From Desulfurella acetivorans A63 (GTDB taxonomy: Bacteria > Campylobacterota_A > Desulfurellia > Desulfurellales > Desulfurellaceae), in NCBI GenBank assembly GCA_000517565.1, contig CP007051.1, positions 581,039 through 645,038 of the forward strand: a DNA stretch of 64,000 bases. Reading direction: 5' to 3'. Position numbers and translations under genes: made by a program. Shown piece after piece: positions 3,621 through 13,009 of this stretch. How positions within the stretch are numbered: the stretch's first letter is position 1; every line of letters starts with the position of its first letter. Below the pieces are notes generated by a model. The model ran no database searches and was not told the DNA's origin. It saw nothing but the letters and a program-made list of their open reading frames with translations.

Positions 3621-4028
3621 ATGAATGTAGTAGAATTTATGAAAAACAACGATCAGGTCAGTAAATGGCTTGGTATCGAAGTAATTGAAGCAAAAGAAGG
3701 CTATGTTTGTACACAAATGCTTGTAAGAAAAGATATGTTAAACGCTGCGGGTGTTTGCCATGGGGGTGTAATTTTTTCTTTATCTGACTATACATTTGCT
3801 GTTGCTTCAAATATTTATGGCAATACTGCACTTGCAATATCAGCAAACATTAATTTTGCAAATGCAGCCAAACAAGGCGATATACTTATTGCAACAGCCA
3901 AAGAATTAAATAGAACAAAAAAAATTGGTATTTATTCTATAACTGTAGAGAGAAAATCTGATAAAAAACTAATAGCTTTTTTCAATGGTGAAGTTTATAT
4001 AAAATCTGAAAGAATTGTTAAAGCTTAA
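3621..4028 (+). CDS. PaaI-family hotdog thioesterase
   Basis: Protein of 135 aa with a single hotdog fold. The family motif HGGVIFSLSDYTFA (~45-60) supplies the catalytic Asp and the acyl-CoA cradle. Such enzymes hydrolyse aryl- or acyl-CoA thioesters in the cytoplasm; no paa catabolic genes are nearby, so a housekeeping CoA-recycling role is inferred. AGGAG lies 6 nt before the ATG, and the gene starts 13 nt after the TonB-family gene, so the two are probably cotranscribed. Confidence 0.87.
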   Translation: MNVVEFMKNNDQVSKWLGIEVIEAKEGYVCTQMLVRKDMLNAAGVCHGGVIFSLSDYTFAVASNIYGNTALAISANINFANAAKQGDILIATAKELNRTKKIGIYSITVERKSDKKLIAFFNGEVYIKSERIVKA

Positions 4029-4218: not shown

Positions 4219-4686
4219 CTAAGCCCTAAGCGTTGCAACGAGCCTTTTTGGGTATAAAAGCAGCTCAAGGGCGCTTACTATATCGCATACTATAATATCG
4301 CTGTTTTGAAGCGCTTCAAGATTTGCGCCTTCTTTACCAATTACACAAATACCCAATTTAGCATATTTTAGCATAAGAGAGTCATTTTTGCCGTTTCCTA
4401 TAGCTACTAAATTTGAAAGCCCGATTGATTTTGCATATTCTAATTTAAATGTTATCTGGTCGATTAATGGCGCAATAATGGTTTTGACATTCAAGCCTTT
4501 TAACTGTTCTTTAGCGCTTGAAAAAGTATCGCCTGTAACAATATGAATATCAAATGCTTTGGATAGTTTTTCTAAAATGTCTTTAGTTTCTTTTATTAGT
4601 ACTCCGCTTGTTGCCAGTGTGCCGTTAAAGTCTAATATGATGCGTTTTAAGACAATTTTACCTACACTCAAAATTTCAATTTCCAT
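4219..4686 (-). CDS. HAD-superfamily phosphatase (soluble P-type-ATPase-like)
   Basis: Protein of 155 aa without a cap domain. Motif I is DFNGTLA (Asp19), motif II lies in HIVTGD (~54-59), and motif III/IV is GNGKNDSLMLKYA (~97-109), which resembles the P-domain of P-type ATPases. It has an unusual Asn in place of the second Asp of DxD, as seen in the DFNGT subgroup. The substrate cannot be told. It overlaps the upstream zinc-ribbon gene by 11 nt, so the two are coexpressed. Confidence 0.85.
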   Translation of the reverse strand: MEIEILSVGKIVLKRIILDFNGTLATSGVLIKETKDILEKLSKAFDIHIVTGDTFSSAKEQLKGLNVKTIIAPLIDQITFKLEYAKSIGLSNLVAIGNGKNDSLMLKYAKLGICVIGKEGANLEALQNSDIIVCDIVSALELLLYPKRLVATLRA

Positions 4687-5053
4687 ATTTTTCCTCCAAT
4701 TTATTAATAAAGTTTGTTAAAAGCATGTTATTTTTTTCTTTTAGTTTATATAGGTATTTTATAGACTCTTTGGTATTTATTAATTTTAGTGTTTTTGCAA
4801 TATAGAAAAGCTCAATTGTATCAGAGCTTGAGCAGGAAAGCTCGTATAGGGGCTTAACTGCTTTTGGGCTTAAAATTTGCCCAAGCATGTAAATTGAAAA
4901 CATTCTGTGATCTCTTATAGGATTTTTAAGTGCTAAGATAAGTTTATCCTCGTAAGAAATTTTTTCAAATTCAGTCAAGTCATAGTTGCAATGCGGACAT
5001 TTATTTGTTTTTCTTTCAATTTGTTGCCAGCAATTTGGACAAAACCATTTCAT
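4676..5053 (-). CDS. Zinc-ribbon protein with HEAT-like helical repeats, function unknown
   Basis: Protein of 125 aa. An N-terminal zinc ribbon has CxxC pairs at Cys5/8 and Cys19/22. It is followed by amphipathic helices (~35-115) resembling two HEAT repeats. A strong GGAGG precedes the ATG. It is translationally coupled to the HAD phosphatase. No specific family function is recognised. Confidence 0.75.
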   Translation of the reverse strand: MKWFCPNCWQQIERKTNKCPHCNYDLTEFEKISYEDKLILALKNPIRDHRMFSIYMLGQILSPKAVKPLYELSCSSSDTIELFYIAKTLKLINTKESIKYLYKLKEKNNMLLTNFINKLEEKYGN

Positions 5054-5108: not shown

Positions 5109-6959
5109 TCATAGCTTGAATATAAAGAGTGCAATTATAAACATAGCTATAATGTAGGCTATATAATAATTTAGATTTCCATTCATAATATATTTTGACA
5201 AAAAACAACTAAGTTTTTTAAACAAAATTTCTAAGCCTTGATAAATTAAATTTGAAACATCATAACTTTCAACGTAAGTGTCTTTTTCTTTCGTTCTGTA
5301 AATACCCCTTAGTACATATTCTACTATAAATGAGTAGCCCCGCGTGTTGTACATTTCATTTTCTTTTAATTTGAGACCACCTACCCACGGAGTAACTGTT
5401 TTTGTTTTTTTGTTTGAAAATTTTAACAATAAAGTAAAAAAAAGTAAGAAACCAAAAACTATTGCAAACATAAATGGTGAAACCACGCCAAAGATAGGTC
5501 TACTAGAAACCATTAAAGCAGGTTTTGGTACACCTAATATACCATCTAAAAAATTATTGTATCCAAGATAAAACACAATTAAAAATGAAAATATACCGCT
5601 TAAAATAACTAAAGCACTCATAAGGTTTTCAGCCAGTTTAATAGTAAAGTCTGGAATCTTTTTGATTGTTTGTATAGATTTTCCTAAACTTGAAAATCCT
5701 ACCAACTTTTTTATGCCAAACGAGCTAAGTCCTATTGCAAGGGCAATTAATATACCAGCAAAAGTTACAATTAGCTTAAAAAAATTATCCTGAAATTTAT
5801 ATGATTGAAATAAACTTTCAAGTAGCATCCATTCAGAAACAAAACCTATTAAAGGTGGCACTGCGCTAAATGATAAACCAGAAATTAACATACCAAAACC
5901 AGCTGATTTGCTGACATTTTTTAGTATGCCACCTAAATCGTCTATATTTTCTTTTTGAAGTGTTTCTTTAGCGTGACCTATGGATAAAAACATTGTAGTT
6001 TTAGACAAAGAGTGTGATATTATTAAAAAAATCGCAGTTAGGTAAGAAAAATCAGCTAATATATTTAAATTACTATACCTCGCAAGCATGCTTACGCCTA
6101 AACTTGCTAAAATCATACCATTATTCTCCACTGTGGAATATGCGGGTAGTGTTTTTAACTGAGTTTCTCTGGCTGATTGTAATGCTCCCCAAAATGCACT
6201 TAAAGCACCCAGAATAACAGCTATAATTGCTAAAAAAACTGATTTTTCTAATGAAAAAACTCTAAAAACTCCATATGTGCCCACAAGCGTAAGAGGTACG
6301 GATAGTATAGCAGCGATATTAGATGGCGCTTTTGAGTAAGTTTGACCAATCCATACATGAGTGGGCACGATATCCATTTTTATAATGAACCCTAAAAATG
6401 CAAATAATGCAAATAGGTAATTATTTCGATATGCTTGAAATAAAAAATTTCCACTATGGGCAAATATAATTGCAAAAGCAATCATTAACAAAACACTGGA
6501 GCCTTCAGAAAATGCTAAAAATTTGTAAGCTTGCTTGTATGAATTGGACTTTTCTAATATTAAAAAAAATAAACTAATATTTGTAATCTCAAAAGCAACT
6601 AAAAATGTAATAGCATCTTTTGCACAAAATATAAACAACATACTTAACATTGTGAGGTTTATTAAAAATGACATTGTTTTACTAAATAGTTTTCCAAAAT
6701 CTATTGAATACAAAGCAATTGCACTAAAGCAAACATACGCTATAATTAAAAATACGGCAGATAGTTTATCAACACCTATACTTAAGCTTAGACCATTAAA
6801 TACATTGATTTGATAAGAAAAACCATTAATATAGCCTTCAAATCCTACAAAAGTGCAGCTTATTGCACCAAGGACGGCAAAAATATAACTCAATGATTTA
6901 TTAAAAAAAACAGCCATACCTAAAATAAAAAACAAAATTGCAAAATCAAATGTTAACAT
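5109..6959 (-). CDS. Mrp/NuoL-type antiporter subunit of hydrogenase-like complex (HyfB-like)
   Basis: Protein of 616 aa with about 14-16 membrane helices and the proton-transporting core typical of NuoL/HyfB. The TM5 glutamate is in LVAFEITN and the TM7 lysine in FIIKMDIVPTHVW. A C-terminal extension ends in a further membrane segment. It is the last gene of the six-gene operon and overlaps the small-subunit gene by 7 nt. It should translocate ions as part of the complex; with no redox module in the operon, the driving reaction is unclear. Confidence 0.87.
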   Translation of the reverse strand: MLTFDFAILFFILGMAVFFNKSLSYIFAVLGAISCTFVGFEGYINGFSYQINVFNGLSLSIGVDKLSAVFLIIAYVCFSAIALYSIDFGKLFSKTMSFLINLTMLSMLFIFCAKDAITFLVAFEITNISLFFLILEKSNSYKQAYKFLAFSEGSSVLLMIAFAIIFAHSGNFLFQAYRNNYLFALFAFLGFIIKMDIVPTHVWIGQTYSKAPSNIAAILSVPLTLVGTYGVFRVFSLEKSVFLAIIAVILGALSAFWGALQSARETQLKTLPAYSTVENNGMILASLGVSMLARYSNLNILADFSYLTAIFLIISHSLSKTTMFLSIGHAKETLQKENIDDLGGILKNVSKSAGFGMLISGLSFSAVPPLIGFVSEWMLLESLFQSYKFQDNFFKLIVTFAGILIALAIGLSSFGIKKLVGFSSLGKSIQTIKKIPDFTIKLAENLMSALVILSGIFSFLIVFYLGYNNFLDGILGVPKPALMVSSRPIFGVVSPFMFAIVFGFLLFFTLLLKFSNKKTKTVTPWVGGLKLKENEMYNTRGYSFIVEYVLRGIYRTKEKDTYVESYDVSNLIYQGLEILFKKLSCFLSKYIMNGNLNYYIAYIIAMFIIALFIFKL

Positions 6960-7405
6960 ATCAAACCACCCTGCGCTATTTCTATTAATTTTTTTAAAAT
7001 TCCTGTGGGTTCTGAAACGTTTTTTAGGTGAGCTACCACATTTTTCAAATTTAATTTTTCAAAATAAAGTCCAATATTGCTGTTTTCTATAAGCATTACA
7101 CCATAAGGAGAAGGCATTTGAGAAATAGCTTCTTGTATAATGGGCAACATTTTTTGTGTTGGTCTTGAGAGAATCACAAGCACATCAGCATGACGGGGTG
7201 TATTCGTAAAAAAGATTCCATAAGCGTGTAAGTTATATTTTGGCGATAATAAGCTGTAAAATTCAAGCAGTAACTCAACATCTGATCCTCCATCTATAAA
7301 AAATACATGCAATGATTTTTTAAATACTGTTTTTGAATTATTTGTTTTAAATTCGAATTTTTTGCTGTATTTTTTTGATAGTCCATAAATGGGCCATAAA
7401 AACAT
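6953..7405 (-). CDS. Degenerate NiFe-hydrogenase-like small subunit (NuoB/HyfI homologue without Fe-S ligands)
   Basis: Protein of 150 aa. The HADVLVIL-(x)2-PT block and the PRHAD context align with HyfI/NuoB. The CNGC motif that binds the proximal 4Fe-4S cluster is replaced by DVEL (residues 42-45), and the later cluster cysteines are also missing; the only Cys is the last residue. It cannot carry the usual cluster. Such small subunits are known in energy-converting hydrogenase-related (Ehr) complexes. Confidence 0.8.
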   Translation of the reverse strand: MFLWPIYGLSKKYSKKFEFKTNNSKTVFKKSLHVFFIDGGSDVELLLEFYSLLSPKYNLHAYGIFFTNTPRHADVLVILSRPTQKMLPIIQEAISQMPSPYGVMLIENSNIGLYFEKLNLKNVVAHLKNVSEPTGILKKLIEIAQGGLIC

Positions 7406-7417
7406 TTTATCTCCTCC

Positions 7418-8647
7418 TTATTTCGCCGCATCCGAAAAAAATGCGCCAAACGATTCTACAGTAAACGTAAAATCAGTAAAAATTTGTCCTATTAGAGCTT
7501 TTTCCATTGCTTTAACTAAAAAAAATGATGGTGTTGCGACATAAACATAATCTATTTTATTACCTACAAGTTCAATGTAATAATAAATTGTACCGCTTGG
7601 GGATTCTGTTAGTGCAATAGTGTTTCTTTTTTGTTGATCATCGTCAATACTTATATTTTTATTTTTTTCATCTATATTTTTTTGAAGTTTGATTAAAAGT
7701 TTTTTAATTAAATCTATTGATTGAAAGATTTCTTTTGCCCTCACAATCATCCTTGATAACGCATCTGATCCTTCTTCTAAAATAGGTTTAAAATCATCAA
7801 ATAAATCTTCAAAAGACCTGGTATCTAAAGAAAAATTCATTGCTTTTACAGCTGGACCATCAAAATTAAATTCTTCGAAGTCATCTGTTGTAAGAAGTCC
7901 AGTGTTGTGAAGTCTGTCTAAGTAATTTTCGCTTTTTAGAGAAAATTTATAAAGTTTTTCAAACTTGTTTACAATGTTTTCAAGCTTATTTACAAAAATT
8001 TTTAATTGATCGAGTGATATATATTTTATTGTACCTATGCTGTTGATATTTTTTAAAAATCTGTTTTTAAAAAGATATTTGTTGTTTTCAAGAATTTCGT
8101 CAAATAGGTATATAAGATGATTTGCTAAAACTTTTTGAGCTGCTGCATCTGCTAAACGTGAAATTACATATATATGGTTAAATATACGTTCAGTTTCTAT
8201 AAAAATTAATCGCATAATTTTTGTTTTGTAGCTTGGTTGTATATTAAATGCATTTTCTATTGCTTTTGAATAAGCGCAAGAATGAGAAAATGCAAAACTT
8301 GTGCAAATTTGCTCAGCAAGTCGCAATCCTTCAAAAACATCCTTTTTAATCATTAATTTTTCTATTGAACGTGATTTGTAAGAGTTATCAATATAAACTT
8401 CTTTTATTCTTTCACCATAAGTAAAAATATTGAATGTAACCGATTCCAATAAAGCACCACTTGATGGACCCAATCTAAAATTGAACAACTCGTCTTTTGG
8501 TTCTTTTGACTCAAAAAGTTCTTTTTGCCACTTATATGCTTTAAATTCTTTGCTTTGTGAATTATCAACGAGACCAACAAATGAACCAGAGTTTACAAAT
8601 AATTGCTCTGAATCTTCTTTTTTTATTATGCCAAGTAATCTTTTCAT
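7418..8647 (-). CDS. Degenerate NiFe-hydrogenase-like large subunit (HyfG/HycE homologue lacking Ni ligands)
   Basis: Protein of 409 aa, homologous to group 4 hydrogenase large subunits and NuoD. The N-terminal Ni motif (RxCGxCxxxH) reads ICTSFAFSH, so Cys115 and His122 survive but the second Cys is Phe118. The C-terminal DPCxxC is GAFFSD (401-406), with Phe and Asp in place of both cysteines. Three of four Ni ligands are thus lost. The protein also stops at this point without the usual cleavable tail. This is the hallmark of Ehr-type complexes rather than a working hydrogenase. Confidence 0.85.
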   Translation of the reverse strand: MKRLLGIIKKEDSEQLFVNSGSFVGLVDNSQSKEFKAYKWQKELFESKEPKDELFNFRLGPSSGALLESVTFNIFTYGERIKEVYIDNSYKSRSIEKLMIKKDVFEGLRLAEQICTSFAFSHSCAYSKAIENAFNIQPSYKTKIMRLIFIETERIFNHIYVISRLADAAAQKVLANHLIYLFDEILENNKYLFKNRFLKNINSIGTIKYISLDQLKIFVNKLENIVNKFEKLYKFSLKSENYLDRLHNTGLLTTDDFEEFNFDGPAVKAMNFSLDTRSFEDLFDDFKPILEEGSDALSRMIVRAKEIFQSIDLIKKLLIKLQKNIDEKNKNISIDDDQQKRNTIALTESPSGTIYYYIELVGNKIDYVYVATPSFFLVKAMEKALIGQIFTDFTFTVESFGAFFSDAAK

Positions 8648-10005
8648 TTAATTACTCCTTGAAGGAATCGGTATAAAAATGGCAAGGATATAAAAGTAAG
8701 TATTGATAGTGTAATATTTATTATGGGCACTAACGTAAAATTGCTTTCTTTTATAGCTTTTTTTCTTTGACCACTAAAAACCATATTTATAACTTTGTAA
8801 TTTATAAATAAAAAGCCACATCCAACAAAGGAAATTAATATTGATCCAATAAGCCAGCCATATAGGTCAATAGTTTTTGATAAAATTAGAAATTCTCCAA
8901 AAAAAATAGCAGAAGGCGGAGCACCAGTGACAGCTAAGCTACCAAAAAACAAAAATAAACCAGTGTGTGGCATAGTTTTAATTATGCCATTTATATCTTC
9001 AATTTTTTTGCTTTTATAATTATGCAGTATATTACCCGTGAGCATAAAAATACCAGATTTTGCAAATGCATGGGCAAATATCAAAACAATTGCACCAAAT
9101 AGAGCGTATGATCCCAAACTAATTCCAATCAATGCAAGTCCCATATTTTCAATCGAAGAATAAGCAAAAAGTCTCTTGTATAGTGTTTGGTTTAAACTCA
9201 TAATGCTTGCTGTAGCAACACTCAAAAAACCTAAAATAAAAGCGAATTCAGATAACAATATATTGTGATTTATCTGGAAAAGCCTTATAATTGGATACAG
9301 CGACACAGGTAGTAGTACTGCACTAAATATAGCACTAACTGGTGCTGGTGATTTGCCATGGGCGTCAGCAAGCCAAGTATTCATAGGAAAAATTCCAGCT
9401 TTTGTACCATAGCCTATAATTAAAAGTATTGCGCCTAATAAAAATAAACTACCTGTTGGTTTTATAGTAAGTAATTTGAATATTGATAGCGTATCGCAAG
9501 CAGAGTATAAAAATAATGTAGCAATAAGTGATATTACAAGACCCACAGAAACAATTATAATATAGCGCCATGCAGCTTCCAGTGCTGTAAAGTCATTTTC
9601 TACAGCAACAAGTAAAGCACTTGAAAATGTGGTTGCTTCTATGCCAACCCAAATAAGACCTAAATTGTTTAGTATTACACTGAAAAACATTGCTGCAACG
9701 AAAATATTTAAAAGCATGAAATATTGATAAACTTTTATAAAACGCTCTTTTATATTTGAAATGTACTCAATGGAAAAAATTACGACGCCAAAATATACAA
9801 TAGCTATCATTAAAGAAAATATTTTTGAAAGGTTATCTACATAAAAATAACTGCTTGAATAGTTTTTGCTAAACAAAATGAAAATAGAACTTATTAAACT
9901 CAATAAGCTTGTAAAAACAGATACAGTGCGTTCTTTTTTCCTAAATCCAATAAAGCAAAGTATAGAACCAATTGTAGCAAATAATGCTGGTAGCGTGTAA
10001 ATCAT
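8644..10005 (-). CDS. NuoN/HyfF-type antiporter subunit of the hydrogenase-like complex
   Basis: Protein of 453 aa and about 14 membrane helices, in the NuoL/M/N antiporter family. The conserved glutamate is in GIEATTFS and the lysine in GYGTKAGIFPMNTWL, followed by PAPVSAIFS. It overlaps both neighbours by 4 nt. It is the second antiporter-like subunit of the complex, so the assembly would have two antiporter channels plus the NuoH-like subunit. Confidence 0.88.
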   Translation of the reverse strand: MIYTLPALFATIGSILCFIGFRKKERTVSVFTSLLSLISSIFILFSKNYSSSYFYVDNLSKIFSLMIAIVYFGVVIFSIEYISNIKERFIKVYQYFMLLNIFVAAMFFSVILNNLGLIWVGIEATTFSSALLVAVENDFTALEAAWRYIIIVSVGLVISLIATLFLYSACDTLSIFKLLTIKPTGSLFLLGAILLIIGYGTKAGIFPMNTWLADAHGKSPAPVSAIFSAVLLPVSLYPIIRLFQINHNILLSEFAFILGFLSVATASIMSLNQTLYKRLFAYSSIENMGLALIGISLGSYALFGAIVLIFAHAFAKSGIFMLTGNILHNYKSKKIEDINGIIKTMPHTGLFLFFGSLAVTGAPPSAIFFGEFLILSKTIDLYGWLIGSILISFVGCGFLFINYKVINMVFSGQRKKAIKESNFTLVPIINITLSILTFISLPFLYRFLQGVIK

Positions 10006-10625
10006 CCGTATAGTTCCTCCTCTTTTTGGATATCTTCGTCACGAATTTTCATTAATATACCACCTATCATAACAATGCCTAAAATATCTAAAATAATCCC
10101 TGCTTCAACAATAAAAGGTAATCCGTTAAATAAAAAGGATAACAAGAACATAGAGTTTTCCATAACAAGGTATCCAATCAATTGAGCATATGCATTTGAT
10201 CGAGACATTATTAAGAAAGCACCTTGAAGCATAAGTGTAATAGGAATTGATATCAATGATTTACCAAATTCGAAAAATACTAGTGTGTATAAAATATAGC
10301 TAAAGATAGCAAGTAAAACTGATATTAAAATAGATAGACTAACGCTTACTTTGTGTTTATTTTCTCTTGCTCGAAATATTTGTTTGTTTATGGTATTTAT
10401 TAAGTAACGTGGGATAAAGATTGCTCTAGTCAGAATTGTTAAAATTGATAGAATTATAATTGAAATATTATTATTTAAAACACCAAAATACATCAAAAAA
10501 ATTCCTAAAATCCAGGATTGAATTGAGAATGTTTTGATATTGTTTGAAACATAATTTTGCCATTGCATAAAAATCGATAATGCTATTTCTATAAAACCAA
10601 TCAGTATAAATACATTATGTTGCAT
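10002..10625 (-). CDS. HyfE-like membrane subunit
   Basis: Protein of 207 aa with about six hydrophobic helices. Length and position between the NuoH-like and HyfF-like genes match HyfE (NuoK-related) of hydrogenase-4. It overlaps the next gene by 4 nt. Individual motifs are weak, so the call leans on gene order. Confidence 0.75.
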   Translation of the reverse strand: MQHNVFILIGFIEIALSIFMQWQNYVSNNIKTFSIQSWILGIFLMYFGVLNNNISIIILSILTILTRAIFIPRYLINTINKQIFRARENKHKVSVSLSILISVLLAIFSYILYTLVFFEFGKSLISIPITLMLQGAFLIMSRSNAYAQLIGYLVMENSMFLLSFLFNGLPFIVEAGIILDILGIVMIGGILMKIRDEDIQKEEELYG

Positions 10626-10628
10626 TTT

Positions 10629-11579
10629 TTATCCTCCGCTTGTTGTTATGTAAAATACAAGCATAGCCAATAGCGTAAAACTAAAAGCTATAGCTATATA
10701 ATCAAAGATTTTAAATAGTCTGTATTTTGAAACCATACTGTTAATAAATGCAAAGATTATAAGCAATATAATAATTTTAAAAAAATTGATAAACATATAA
10801 AAAAATATTGAAATCAAGCTTAATTTCATGGGAACAAAAAATGGCCATGTATAAACATTTAAAAAAACATTCATTAAAATAAATTGTTTAATATAGCTGC
10901 CCCATTTTAAGAGAGCTAATTCTCTGCCTGAATATTCATGAATTAATAAAGTATCAATTGAACCTAATTCATTTAAAGAGTTGCTTTCTATGGGTAGTTG
11001 TCCGATTTCAATAATTAAAACAAATAAAAATGCAAGAGCTATAAATAAATGCACTAAAGAATAATACCAGCTTGTTGAAGTTTGCATTATGTTGTTAATT
11101 ACATAAGGATTGTTGGTACCTGAAATAACACCAAGCATAATAAATATTAGCAAAATAACCGGTTCAGTAAATATTCCTATACTTGATGATCGTGATGCGC
11201 CTAAAATTGAATAATTATTTCTGGAATCAAGCGCAGAAAGTTTAATAAGGGTCGATGCAGCACCAAACACTAAGCCGCCACCAACAAAGTCAACAACAGG
11301 ACCAAATGTTAAAGGAAATGCGGTAATAATAGGCAACACCAAAGTTAAAAATAAATACATTGCAAAGCTCATATATGGTACATAAGCAAAAAATATTGAA
11401 GAGGATTCTGGGTAAATGCTTTGTTTTTTAAAATATTTAAATAGATTGTAATACTCTTGGAATATAGAGGGTCCCCCTCTTGAAGACAATCTTTCATTGA
11501 AAAAATTTAAAATTCCAATAGCTAAAGGAGATAGGATAATTACATACAACAATTGCGCAATACTTAAATAAAACAGCAT
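10629..11579 (-). CDS. NuoH/HyfC-type membrane subunit, first gene of the operon
   Basis: Protein of 316 aa and about eight membrane helices. The NuoH signature loop is present as RGGPSIFQEYYNLFKYF near residue 33. The IEIGQLPIES and LLIHEYSGRELALLKW blocks provide the acidic residues linking the quinone/hydrogenase side to the membrane arm. It lies ~65 nt downstream of the fluoride riboswitch. Ribosome-binding sequence is weak (GCGGGG). Confidence 0.88.
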   Translation of the reverse strand: MLFYLSIAQLLYVIILSPLAIGILNFFNERLSSRGGPSIFQEYYNLFKYFKKQSIYPESSSIFFAYVPYMSFAMYLFLTLVLPIITAFPLTFGPVVDFVGGGLVFGAASTLIKLSALDSRNNYSILGASRSSSIGIFTEPVILLIFIMLGVISGTNNPYVINNIMQTSTSWYYSLVHLFIALAFLFVLIIEIGQLPIESNSLNELGSIDTLLIHEYSGRELALLKWGSYIKQFILMNVFLNVYTWPFFVPMKLSLISIFFYMFINFFKIIILLIIFAFINSMVSKYRLFKIFDYIAIAFSFTLLAMLVFYITTSGG

Positions 11580-11645
11580 ATAAAACCCCGCATGTATTTT
11601 TTAAATAAAGAATATATGATTTTAATAATTAAAAATGACACCAAC

Positions 11646-11714
11646 AACCCCTACATAAATAATTTGTAGGAGTTATCAGCCTAGGTAGGCATTTTTGGCG
11701 AACTCCATCGCCAC
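11646..11714 (-). ncRNA. Fluoride riboswitch (crcB motif) with alternative hairpin
   Basis: The minus strand reads GTGGCGATGGAGTTCGCC, an A-rich linker, the hairpin GCCT-ACCT-AGGC, then TGATAACTCC. This follows the fluoride aptamer (GGCGATGGAGTTCGCC...GC-hairpin-GC...TGATnACTCC) almost base for base as I know it from the Bacillus cereus example. The 3' strand AACTCCTACA can instead pair with TGTAGGGGTT (hairpin 11646-11674, 10 bp with one G-T), giving mutually exclusive folds as in an intrinsic-terminator switch, though the following U-tract is imperfect. It faces the hydrogenase-like operon. Confidence 0.92.
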
Positions 11715-11723
11715 TTTTGTATT

Positions 11724-11751
11724 ATTTTAAATTTTTTATTCATTTTGTCAA
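11724..11751 (-). promoter_or_regulatory. Promoter of the riboswitch and hydrogenase-like operon
   Basis: -35 TTGACA at 11751-11746, 16-bp spacer and -10 TAAAAT at 11729-11724. The start would fall a few bases before the riboswitch aptamer at 11714. Confidence 0.7.
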
Positions 11752-11760
11752 GGCTAAAGC

Positions 11761-11789
11761 TTGAAAACACATTAAATTTGCTTTATTAT
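11761..11789 (+). promoter_or_regulatory. Promoter of the CLC gene
   Basis: -35 TTGAAA (11761-11766), 17-bp spacer, -10 TATTAT (11784-11789). The ATG at 11799 begins 10 nt on, so the mRNA would start at or within a few bases of the start codon. Confidence 0.6.
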
Positions 11790-11798
11790 AGCAAAAGA

Positions 11799-13009
11799 AT
11801 GAATATTTCAAGAATAATTAGGTTGAAACTTTATAAACTAACAAAAGATTTTGGTTATGTAATTTCAAATCAATCTTATTTTCTAAAATGGCTTATTTTA
11901 GGATCTATAGTTGGTGTAATTGCTGGTTTTGGTGCTTTAGTTTTTTATTATTCTATAAAACTTTCAGAAAGTTTCTTTTTACAATACTTGCTTGGCGCAA
12001 AATTGCCGCTACCAAAAGGCGAAAATTTAAGTGAAACTTTTGCAATAAAACGTGCATATTTGATACCATTTGTAGTAGCTTTTGGAGGTTTGATTTCAGG
12101 TTATTTAATTTTTAAATTTGCACCAGAAGCAGAAGGACATGGCACAGATGCAGCAATTGATGCTTATCATAATAAACAAGGTAACATTAGACCGCGCGTG
12201 ATTTTTTTAAAAACTATAGCTTCTGCTATAACAATAGGCTCAGGTGGATCAGCTGGTAGGGAAGGGCCGACTGCTTTGATTTCGGCTGGCATCGGGTCTT
12301 TAATTGGCAAAATTCTACACCTTAATGTTCAAGATAAGAGAAAAATTGTAGCAATTGGTATTGGTGCAGGGATTGGTACAATTTTTAAAGCACCAATAGG
12401 TGGTGCAATTTTAGCTGCTGAGGTTCTTTATAAAAGAGATTTGCAGTCTGAAGTAATTTATCCAGCTATTGTAGCAAGCGCGATAGGTTACTCTATATTT
12501 GGAAGTTTTGTAGGGTTTGAGCCTATTTTTGGGTTTTATAAATCGCCATTTAACCCATTAAGGTTGCCGTTTTATATTATTTTAGGTGTTGTGTGTGGAT
12601 ATTTAGCTATTGTTTACCCAAAAACATTTTATTATGTAAAAGAAAAATTTGCAAAACTTAATATAAATAACATTTACAAACCAGCAATCGGTGCATTTAT
12701 AAGTGGCTTAATTTCTCTTATTTTTCCTGAAGTAATAGGCGTTGGTTATGGGTGGATTCAGTTACTTATAGATGGGAAATTTAACGTATTGCCAACACTT
12801 GGTTTACCAGTTTTGTTAATTTTTTTAATAATGCCTTATCGGCTACAATTTCTACGACACTTGAAGATGCATGGAAACTTATGAGTGCAAATAAAACCAC
12901 ATGGCTACCTGTTGTTGAAGATTCTATGTTTCTTGGCATTGTTAGTTTTGCTGATATATCTGATATTTACAGCAAAAAGCTTAAGGAATTAAATTTGGAT
13001 AACAAATGA
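11799..13009 (+). pseudogene. Disrupted CLC chloride-channel gene with remnant of C-terminal CBS domain
   Basis: From the ATG at 11799 the reading frame encodes helices A to about M of a CLC channel: GHGTDAAI, GREGPTA with the gating Glu, and IFKAPIGGAILAAEV. It then stops at 12884 after the sense is lost near 12830. In another frame from about 12827 to 13009 runs an intact end of a CBS domain (TTLEDAWKLMSANKTTW, then WLPVVEDSMFLGIVSFADI). The last CLC helices, including the GxFxP region, and the first CBS repeat are missing, so an internal deletion plus frame change has occurred. The CBS stop overlaps the next gene as ATGA, a relic of coupling. Confidence 0.85.

Follow-up and report, generated by a model that had tools for sequence, protein, structure and literature searches.

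Motifs of the crcB class, the aptamers of the fluoride riboswitch, were reported in front of 'formate hydrogen lyase' genes by Weinberg in 2010 (PMC2864571), as the initial annotation of the present locus had correctly noted. A 2024 review placed 'formate hydrogen lyase' among the commonest riboswitch-associated enzymes and explained it metabolically, as a fermentation enzyme (PMC11139923). Ehr complexes without Ni/Fe ligands have already been described (PMC6349859). In the literature searched, no paper was found that links the fluoride-riboswitch 'formate hydrogenlyase' (FHL) with the Ehr complexes, and parts of the connection may have been remarked elsewhere. We analyzed 64,000 nucleotides of Desulfurella acetivorans A63 (contig CP007051.1, positions 581,039 to 645,038; this whole stretch is the window), in which a six-gene membrane-complex operon follows a fluoride riboswitch. 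Judged by sequence, the fluoride-linked 'FHL' of the members examined is a separate Ehr-derived clade without a Ni-Fe site, mostly cofactor-free and encoded in genomes lacking known exporters. With a probability of roughly 0.62, we propose that it is a fluoride-induced, non-redox ion-translocating complex driven by the proton motive force (pmf), and that it forms a branch of the Ehr complexes devoted to fluoride, within the complex I and group 4 hydrogenase superfamily.

The leader of the operon contains three elements:

11660..11721, minus strand: fluoride riboswitch aptamer (RF01734), 55.5 bits, E 1.1e-12; P1 and the pseudoknot covary in relatives
11724..11751, minus strand: sigma-70-like promoter TTGACA-16-TAAAAT, 11/12 consensus matches, assigned by consensus match only
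11631..11680, minus strand: expression platform, a 16-bp terminator-like hairpin with a U-run, fold z -4.7

The Rfam match (11721-11660 on the minus strand) is full length against a cut-off of 34 bits, and it is the single real copy in the 1.82-Mb genome, the runner-up match being at chance level. Both the near-perfect aptamer and its own promoter, which ends just upstream of it at 11724, had been read in the leader by the initial annotation and were recovered here, with the aptamer bounds corrected from 11646-11714 to 11660-11721. In folding predictions, the 16-bp hairpin (about 11680-11640) is an alternative structure for the aptamer's 3' half and has CATTTTT right after it; none of 200 shuffled sequences was equally stable. 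The hairpin shares the 3' strands of P3 and the pseudoknot, which makes the terminator exclusive with both, and fluoride binding should therefore prevent termination. From this layout, an ON switch responding to fluoride is predicted.

Behind the aptamer, the operon runs on the minus strand from 11579 to 5109 in the order C-E-F-G-I-B, with reading frames that abut or overlap:

10629..11579, minus strand: C subunit, NuoH/HyfC-like (PF00146, E 5.2e-25)
10002..10625, minus strand: E subunit, HyfE-like (NF008556, E 1.2e-11)
8644..10005, minus strand: F subunit, HyfF-like antiporter-type (PF00361, E 7.2e-53)
7418..8647, minus strand: G subunit, NuoD/HyfG-like large subunit without a Ni-Fe site, judged by its cysteines (PF00346/PF00374; AlphaFold pLDDT 89)
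6953..7405, minus strand: I subunit, NuoB/HyfI-like small subunit without Fe-S cysteines (NF005012, E 4.7e-10, and fold)
5109..6959, minus strand: B subunit, HyfB-like antiporter-type (PF00361, E 1.4e-29); E144, K229 and K342 in 25/25, Glu or Asp at 399

These Pfam and NCBIfam matches, all far under the equivalog cut-offs, gave the subunit composition that had first been assigned (two antiporter-type, one NuoH-like, one HyfE-like and two hydrogenase-like subunits). When the large subunit was searched as a profile, its top solved structures were Mbh, FHL and complex I. Its AlphaFold model was closest to HycE of FHL (7z0s), and the model of the small subunit matched the fold of HycG/MbhJ/NuoB; plasmid rows were left out of the input to the structure job. 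According to these models, both subunits of the cytoplasmic arm retain hydrogenase/complex I folds. The best-scoring models for the subunits were those of Hyf, FHL and NuoD, and this, together with the filing of the operon type as formate hydrogen lyase in the 2024 review (PMC11139923), is what speaks for a genuine formate hydrogenlyase or hydrogenase-4. However, the Ni-Fe ligands were missing in every fluoride-clade member examined, and neither a formate dehydrogenase subunit nor a ferredoxin-like electron-input subunit was found among the six genes of the operon. The missing ligands rule out a hydrogenase or FHL function in the members examined, and the chance that the literature label is right is close to nil. 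The complex probably serves as an ion transporter in the defence against fluoride, and not as a 'formate hydrogenlyase'.

The loss of redox sites extends through both arm subunits. In an alignment with E. coli HycE, the window's large subunit has C/F/F/D at the four Ni-Fe cysteine positions, so that of CxxC-1 and CxxC-2 solely the first Cys of CxxC-1 is retained; the second CxxC-1 Cys and both CxxC-2 Cys were missing in the large subunits of 26/26 relatives. The window's small subunit keeps none of the cluster cysteines (the proximal [4Fe-4S] ligands). These findings agree with the initial annotation, which had described the active-site cysteines as largely gone and the complex as not a hydrogenase. 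It could still be a redox pump with an unknown carrier, as has been proposed for Ehr complexes, in which a redox reaction on the cytoplasmic side is suspected of being coupled to charge translocation, given that both arm subunits keep their fold and that the Burkholderia and Caballeronia members retain Fe-S cysteines and a ferredoxin domain. We consider this improbable, as the complete set of cluster cysteines occurred in 0/26 main-clade small subunits, about ten of them entirely free of cysteine, and the operon encodes no ferredoxin subunit.

The residues of the ion path are largely kept. In the antiporter-type subunits, the Glu of transmembrane helix 5 (TM5) and the Lys of TM7 were invariant (F 23/23, B 25/25), and the TM12 position was Glu (F 23/23; B 25/25 with one Asp). 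Among the NuoH-like subunits, R148, E220 and E228 were invariant (22/22) and E157 was Glu in 21/22 (E. coli NuoH numbering). The ratio of nonsynonymous to synonymous substitution rates (dN/dS) between congeners was 0.05-0.23 for each subunit, including the two metal-less ones, with values involving the congener G001 being rough because dS to it is near saturation. By these ratios, purifying selection acts on each of the six genes, and the alignments indicate that the ion path is selected for although the redox part is gone.

We then considered whether the aptamer belongs to the complex. In the window's phylum, whose order Desulfurellales includes metagenome-assembled genomes (MAGs) named Desulfurellales/Hippea, the aptamer was found in 20 of 25 genomes, always immediately ahead of the C gene; in the five genomes without it, no ortholog of the complex was found either. 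A large-subunit alignment search over GTDB genomes recovered 25 loci in Desulfurellales, Thermotogota, Spirochaetota, Bacteroidota and further lineages, with the order C-E-F-G-I-B at all loci having enough sequence and the aptamer at 21/21 loci whose sequence includes the C start, some with scores under the Rfam cut-off. Further aptamer-bearing operons came from four Thermotogota and two Spirochaetota genomes. The tally of aptamers before the operon outside the window's phylum is Thermotogota 8, Spirochaetota 3, Bacteroidota 5, two other lineages, Burkholderia, Caballeronia and Mycobacterium. Across P1 and the pseudoknot, six pairs showed two-sided change, and 0/500 shuffles, which ignore relatedness, reached as high a count (P3, where the alignment is off by one, was excluded). 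Taken together, these sequences indicate that the link is general, with about 40 operons in at least six bacterial phyla.

A hitch-hiking or decaying aptamer copy, unrelated to the function of the complex, would fit the weakness of two Bacteroidota aptamers: with model R1, built without Bacteroidota sequences, three of the five were recovered at E 1e-4 to 2e-5, and the other two were missed and seen by eye only. However, position and covariation are conserved in about 40 operons over deep divergence, and operons lie in fluoride islands. This conservation rules out a local or decayed aptamer, a possibility that the initial annotation had raised, and leaves the hitch-hiking account very improbable. 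The survey it had suggested, for fluoride aptamers before cysteine-less Hyf-like operons, found them in Desulfurellales, Thermotogota, Spirochaetota, Bacteroidota and Mycobacterium. As a separate observation, three Bacteroidota aptamers upstream of C (L078, L081 and L084) have in common a pseudoknot A.C mismatch (GGAACU with AGCUCC or GGCUCC).

The relatives in Burkholderia, Caballeronia and Mycobacterium, found by tblastn against plasmids, have the C-E-F-G-I-B order with RF01734 in front:

L092, 5155-5225: RF01734 before C at 5465
L172, 3584-3654: RF01734 before C at 3891
L090, 4830-4903: RF01734 before a NUDIX gene, then C

The Burkholderia plasmid was typed as conjugative. Seven fluoride riboswitches were counted on the stretch examined, and its genes include crcB as well as those for an inorganic diphosphatase, a CLC, a HAD phosphatase and a dynamin-type GTPase. 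In Bacteroidota, the gene after the operon is an enolase (L085) or MutS-like (L083). By gene content, the operons thus lie partly inside fluoride-resistance islands with crcB, pyrophosphatase, enolase, MutS-like and dynamin neighbours. When C, F, G and B were combined in a tree of 32 taxa with E. coli Hyf as the root, the aptamer-bearing operons formed one clade with an ultrafast bootstrap (UFBoot) of 100. Outside it were eight sister operons of Ehr-like type, from Azospirillum, Rhizobium, Paraburkholderia, Cupriavidus, Methylocalor, Rhodococcus and Allomeiothermus, which differ from C-E-F-G-I-B in gene order and lack the aptamer in all eight stretches scanned, operon start included. No aptamer was seen in the distant operons L190, L192 and L193 within the sequence scanned, which excludes the operon starts. 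Redox loss is graded within the clade: the Burkholderia and Caballeronia members have lost the Ni-Fe site but still carry Fe-S cysteines and a ferredoxin domain, the Mycobacterium member has lost the small-subunit cysteines, and in the main branch the Ni-Fe site, Fe-S cysteines and ferredoxin parts are all gone. The role in fluoride thus predates or outlasts the redox loss.

Known fluoride exporters were sought in the same genomes. CrcB/Fluc (PF02537) was found in 0/25 genomes of the phylum, while the same search was positive in 10/14 known control genomes; it was also absent from 10/15 other operon-bearing genomes and four more Thermotogota, and from all Thermotogota sampled. A CLC-F-like protein was found in none of 40 operon-bearing genomes, where the best relatives were at the 22-32% identity level with at most 114 bits; this call relies on a single query, one riboswitch-controlled Caballeronia CLC, plus motifs, and MAG incompleteness limits the exporter-absence results. 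In these searches the window genome is without CrcB/Fluc or a CLC-F-like protein. Neither a PF02537 domain nor an F-type CLC was found on the operon transcript, as the initial annotation had stated. A non-F-type CLC gene lies divergently (11745-12884, plus strand, with a tail to 13006). It corresponds to a 609-aa gene, intact in the congener G001, of which an internal deletion and a frameshift have left a remnant; in the congener G002 the gene is broken as well. It was rejected as a riboswitch-regulated exporter, being on the wrong strand, broken in the window genome, and bearing the motif GREGP, as do the phylum CLCs sampled, rather than the GREGT of the Caballeronia query.

These absences bear on what the complex may transport. 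One option is that the complex itself exports fluoride, by F-/H+ antiport or F- uniport, as a multi-subunit substitute for Fluc and CLC-F: CrcB is missing in the window genome, its phylum and the Thermotogota sampled, and the operon is the only fluoride-switched transcript of the window genome. However, subunits of this superfamily are known for H+, Na+ and K+ rather than anions, crcB is present beside the complex in Burkholderia, some Bacteroidota and G295, and the absence of CLC-F depends on the query noted above. A third, multi-subunit kind of fluoride exporter, of complex I type and redox-free, with pmf-driven efflux in place of Fluc/CLC-F in Desulfurellales and Thermotogota, is a doubtful proposition. 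The better-placed option, tentative and somewhat under even odds, is a Mrp-like cation/H+ antiporter that repairs pH and pmf after entry of hydrogen fluoride (HF) and does not move fluoride itself. Such a role would suit the TM5 Glu, TM7 Lys and TM12 Glu retained in both antiporter subunits and the rank of Na+/H+ antiporters as the commonest riboswitch genes after exporters (PMC11139923), but it leaves the window genome without a known fluoride exporter, and Mrp-type E/F/G partners are not on the transcript. From family precedent we lean slightly to cation/H+ exchange over F- efflux; efflux is kept in view because known exporters are absent.

Under the proposed fluoride-induced, pmf-driven mechanism, fluoride would bind the leader RNA, block the overlapping terminator and turn on all six subunits, as the identity and conservation of the aptamer suggest. 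The assembled complex would join the two antiporter-type, NuoH-like and HyfE-like subunits to a NuoD/NuoB-like arm that, by sequence and model evidence, is folded and metal-free. With neither electron input nor output, it could not be a redox pump and would have to act as a secondary transporter, for which the energy would come from pmf or another ion gradient. HF entering the cell lowers its pH and, as expected for a weak acid, fluoride is trapped when the cytoplasm is alkaline; a proton-importing antiporter could for this reason lower fluoride as well. H+-coupled exchange may thus limit cytoplasmic fluoride or restore pH and cation balance during HF entry, and the metal-free arm might, speculatively, serve as scaffold or gate. 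Several points weigh against this proposal. Antiporter-type subunits are normally powered by redox energy through the very arm whose chemistry is lost here. In the main clade, both antiporter-type subunits have lost the proton-path Lys (or His/Asn) of TM8, with Pro in its place in F (23/23) and Leu/Val in B (25/25), and coupling may therefore differ. The Burkholderia/Caballeronia branch retains Fe-S cysteines and a ferredoxin domain and could therefore still be redox-active, and the operon trees are no proof that aptamer and complex share one function. The initial annotation had called the complex a fluoride-responsive ion-translocating machine. Fluoride control of the operon is strongly supported by the conserved, covarying aptamer, whereas ion translocation is consistent with the invariant charged residues of the antiporter-type subunits.

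Two genes directly downstream are possibly distal genes of the operon transcript:

4676..5053, minus strand: zinc-ribbon/HEAT protein, following the operon in both congeners
4219..4686, minus strand: HAD-type phosphatase, conserved in the genus, with a homologue behind a Burkholderia (L092) fluoride riboswitch

Relatives of the zinc-ribbon/HEAT protein are also close to the operon in L085 and L087. In Thermotogota, a DUF6062 protein is directly downstream of the operon (L071, 12630-13265), and an ORF resembling it follows a weak fluoride aptamer in L124. Dynamin-type GTPases were observed behind fluoride riboswitches at L055, L060, L062, L063, L064, L039, L040, L044, L045 and L046, in the window's phylum, at L101, and, with one intervening gene, in Burkholderia (L092, 209-2314); the assignment to PF00350 was checked for five of these loci and Burkholderia. 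No paper naming fluoride riboswitch and dynamin together was found in the literature searched. Thermotogota aptamers at L111, L119, L122, L128 and L130, some sub-threshold, precede MoxR-type AAA ATPase genes, with a second ORF next in most. MutS-like genes lie behind aptamers or beside the complex operon at L103, L105, L110, L112, L129 and L083 (13786-15366), and the association of this aptamer class with MutS was already noted in 2010 (PMC2864571). On an Alicyclobacillus plasmid, a fluoride island that contains five riboswitches (L174) has a large-subunit gene (6732-8434) behind a riboswitch, with no other complex subunit within the 15 kb examined.

The main consequence is a correction of the fermentation-enzyme reading, as neither production nor use of H2 is possible for the members examined. 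Fluoride biology would gain a large candidate resistance component, present in at least six phyla and also on a conjugative plasmid. For bioenergetics, the clade offers a natural experiment, a complex I-type machine whose redox chemistry was lost in evolution with the ion path retained, and this redox-free path bears on how antiporter subunits are coupled.

Among known systems, the Mrp cation/proton antiporters likewise have antiporter-type subunits with conserved Glu/Lys/Glu and no redox chemistry, but the complex here adds a NuoH-like subunit and a NuoD/NuoB-like cytoplasmic arm. E. coli FHL and hydrogenase-4 (Hyc, Hyf; 7z0s) have homologous large, small and membrane subunits of the same fold, but the present complex is without their Ni-Fe site, Fe-S clusters, ferredoxin and formate dehydrogenase. 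Of the solved structures, the membrane-bound hydrogenase (Mbh) of P. furiosus (6cfw) matches the large-subunit sequence best, but Mbh has an active site and Fe-S clusters. The fluoride-riboswitch regulon (crcB, CLC-F, enolase, pyrophosphatase, MutS) shares the aptamer class and the neighbourhoods (PMC2864571; PMC11139923), but its listed 'enzyme' is, in the members examined, a non-hydrogenase clade. Closest are the Ehr complexes, defined by Hyf-like subunits, an antiporter-type membrane arm and absent Ni/Fe-coordinating residues (PMC6349859), all of which are found here. In contrast to them, the present operons are fluoride-switched, ordered C-E-F-G-I-B rather than B-C-E-F-G-I, and placed in a separate clade, whose main branch has also shed the small-subunit Fe-S cysteines, the NuoC-like domain and the ferredoxin parts.

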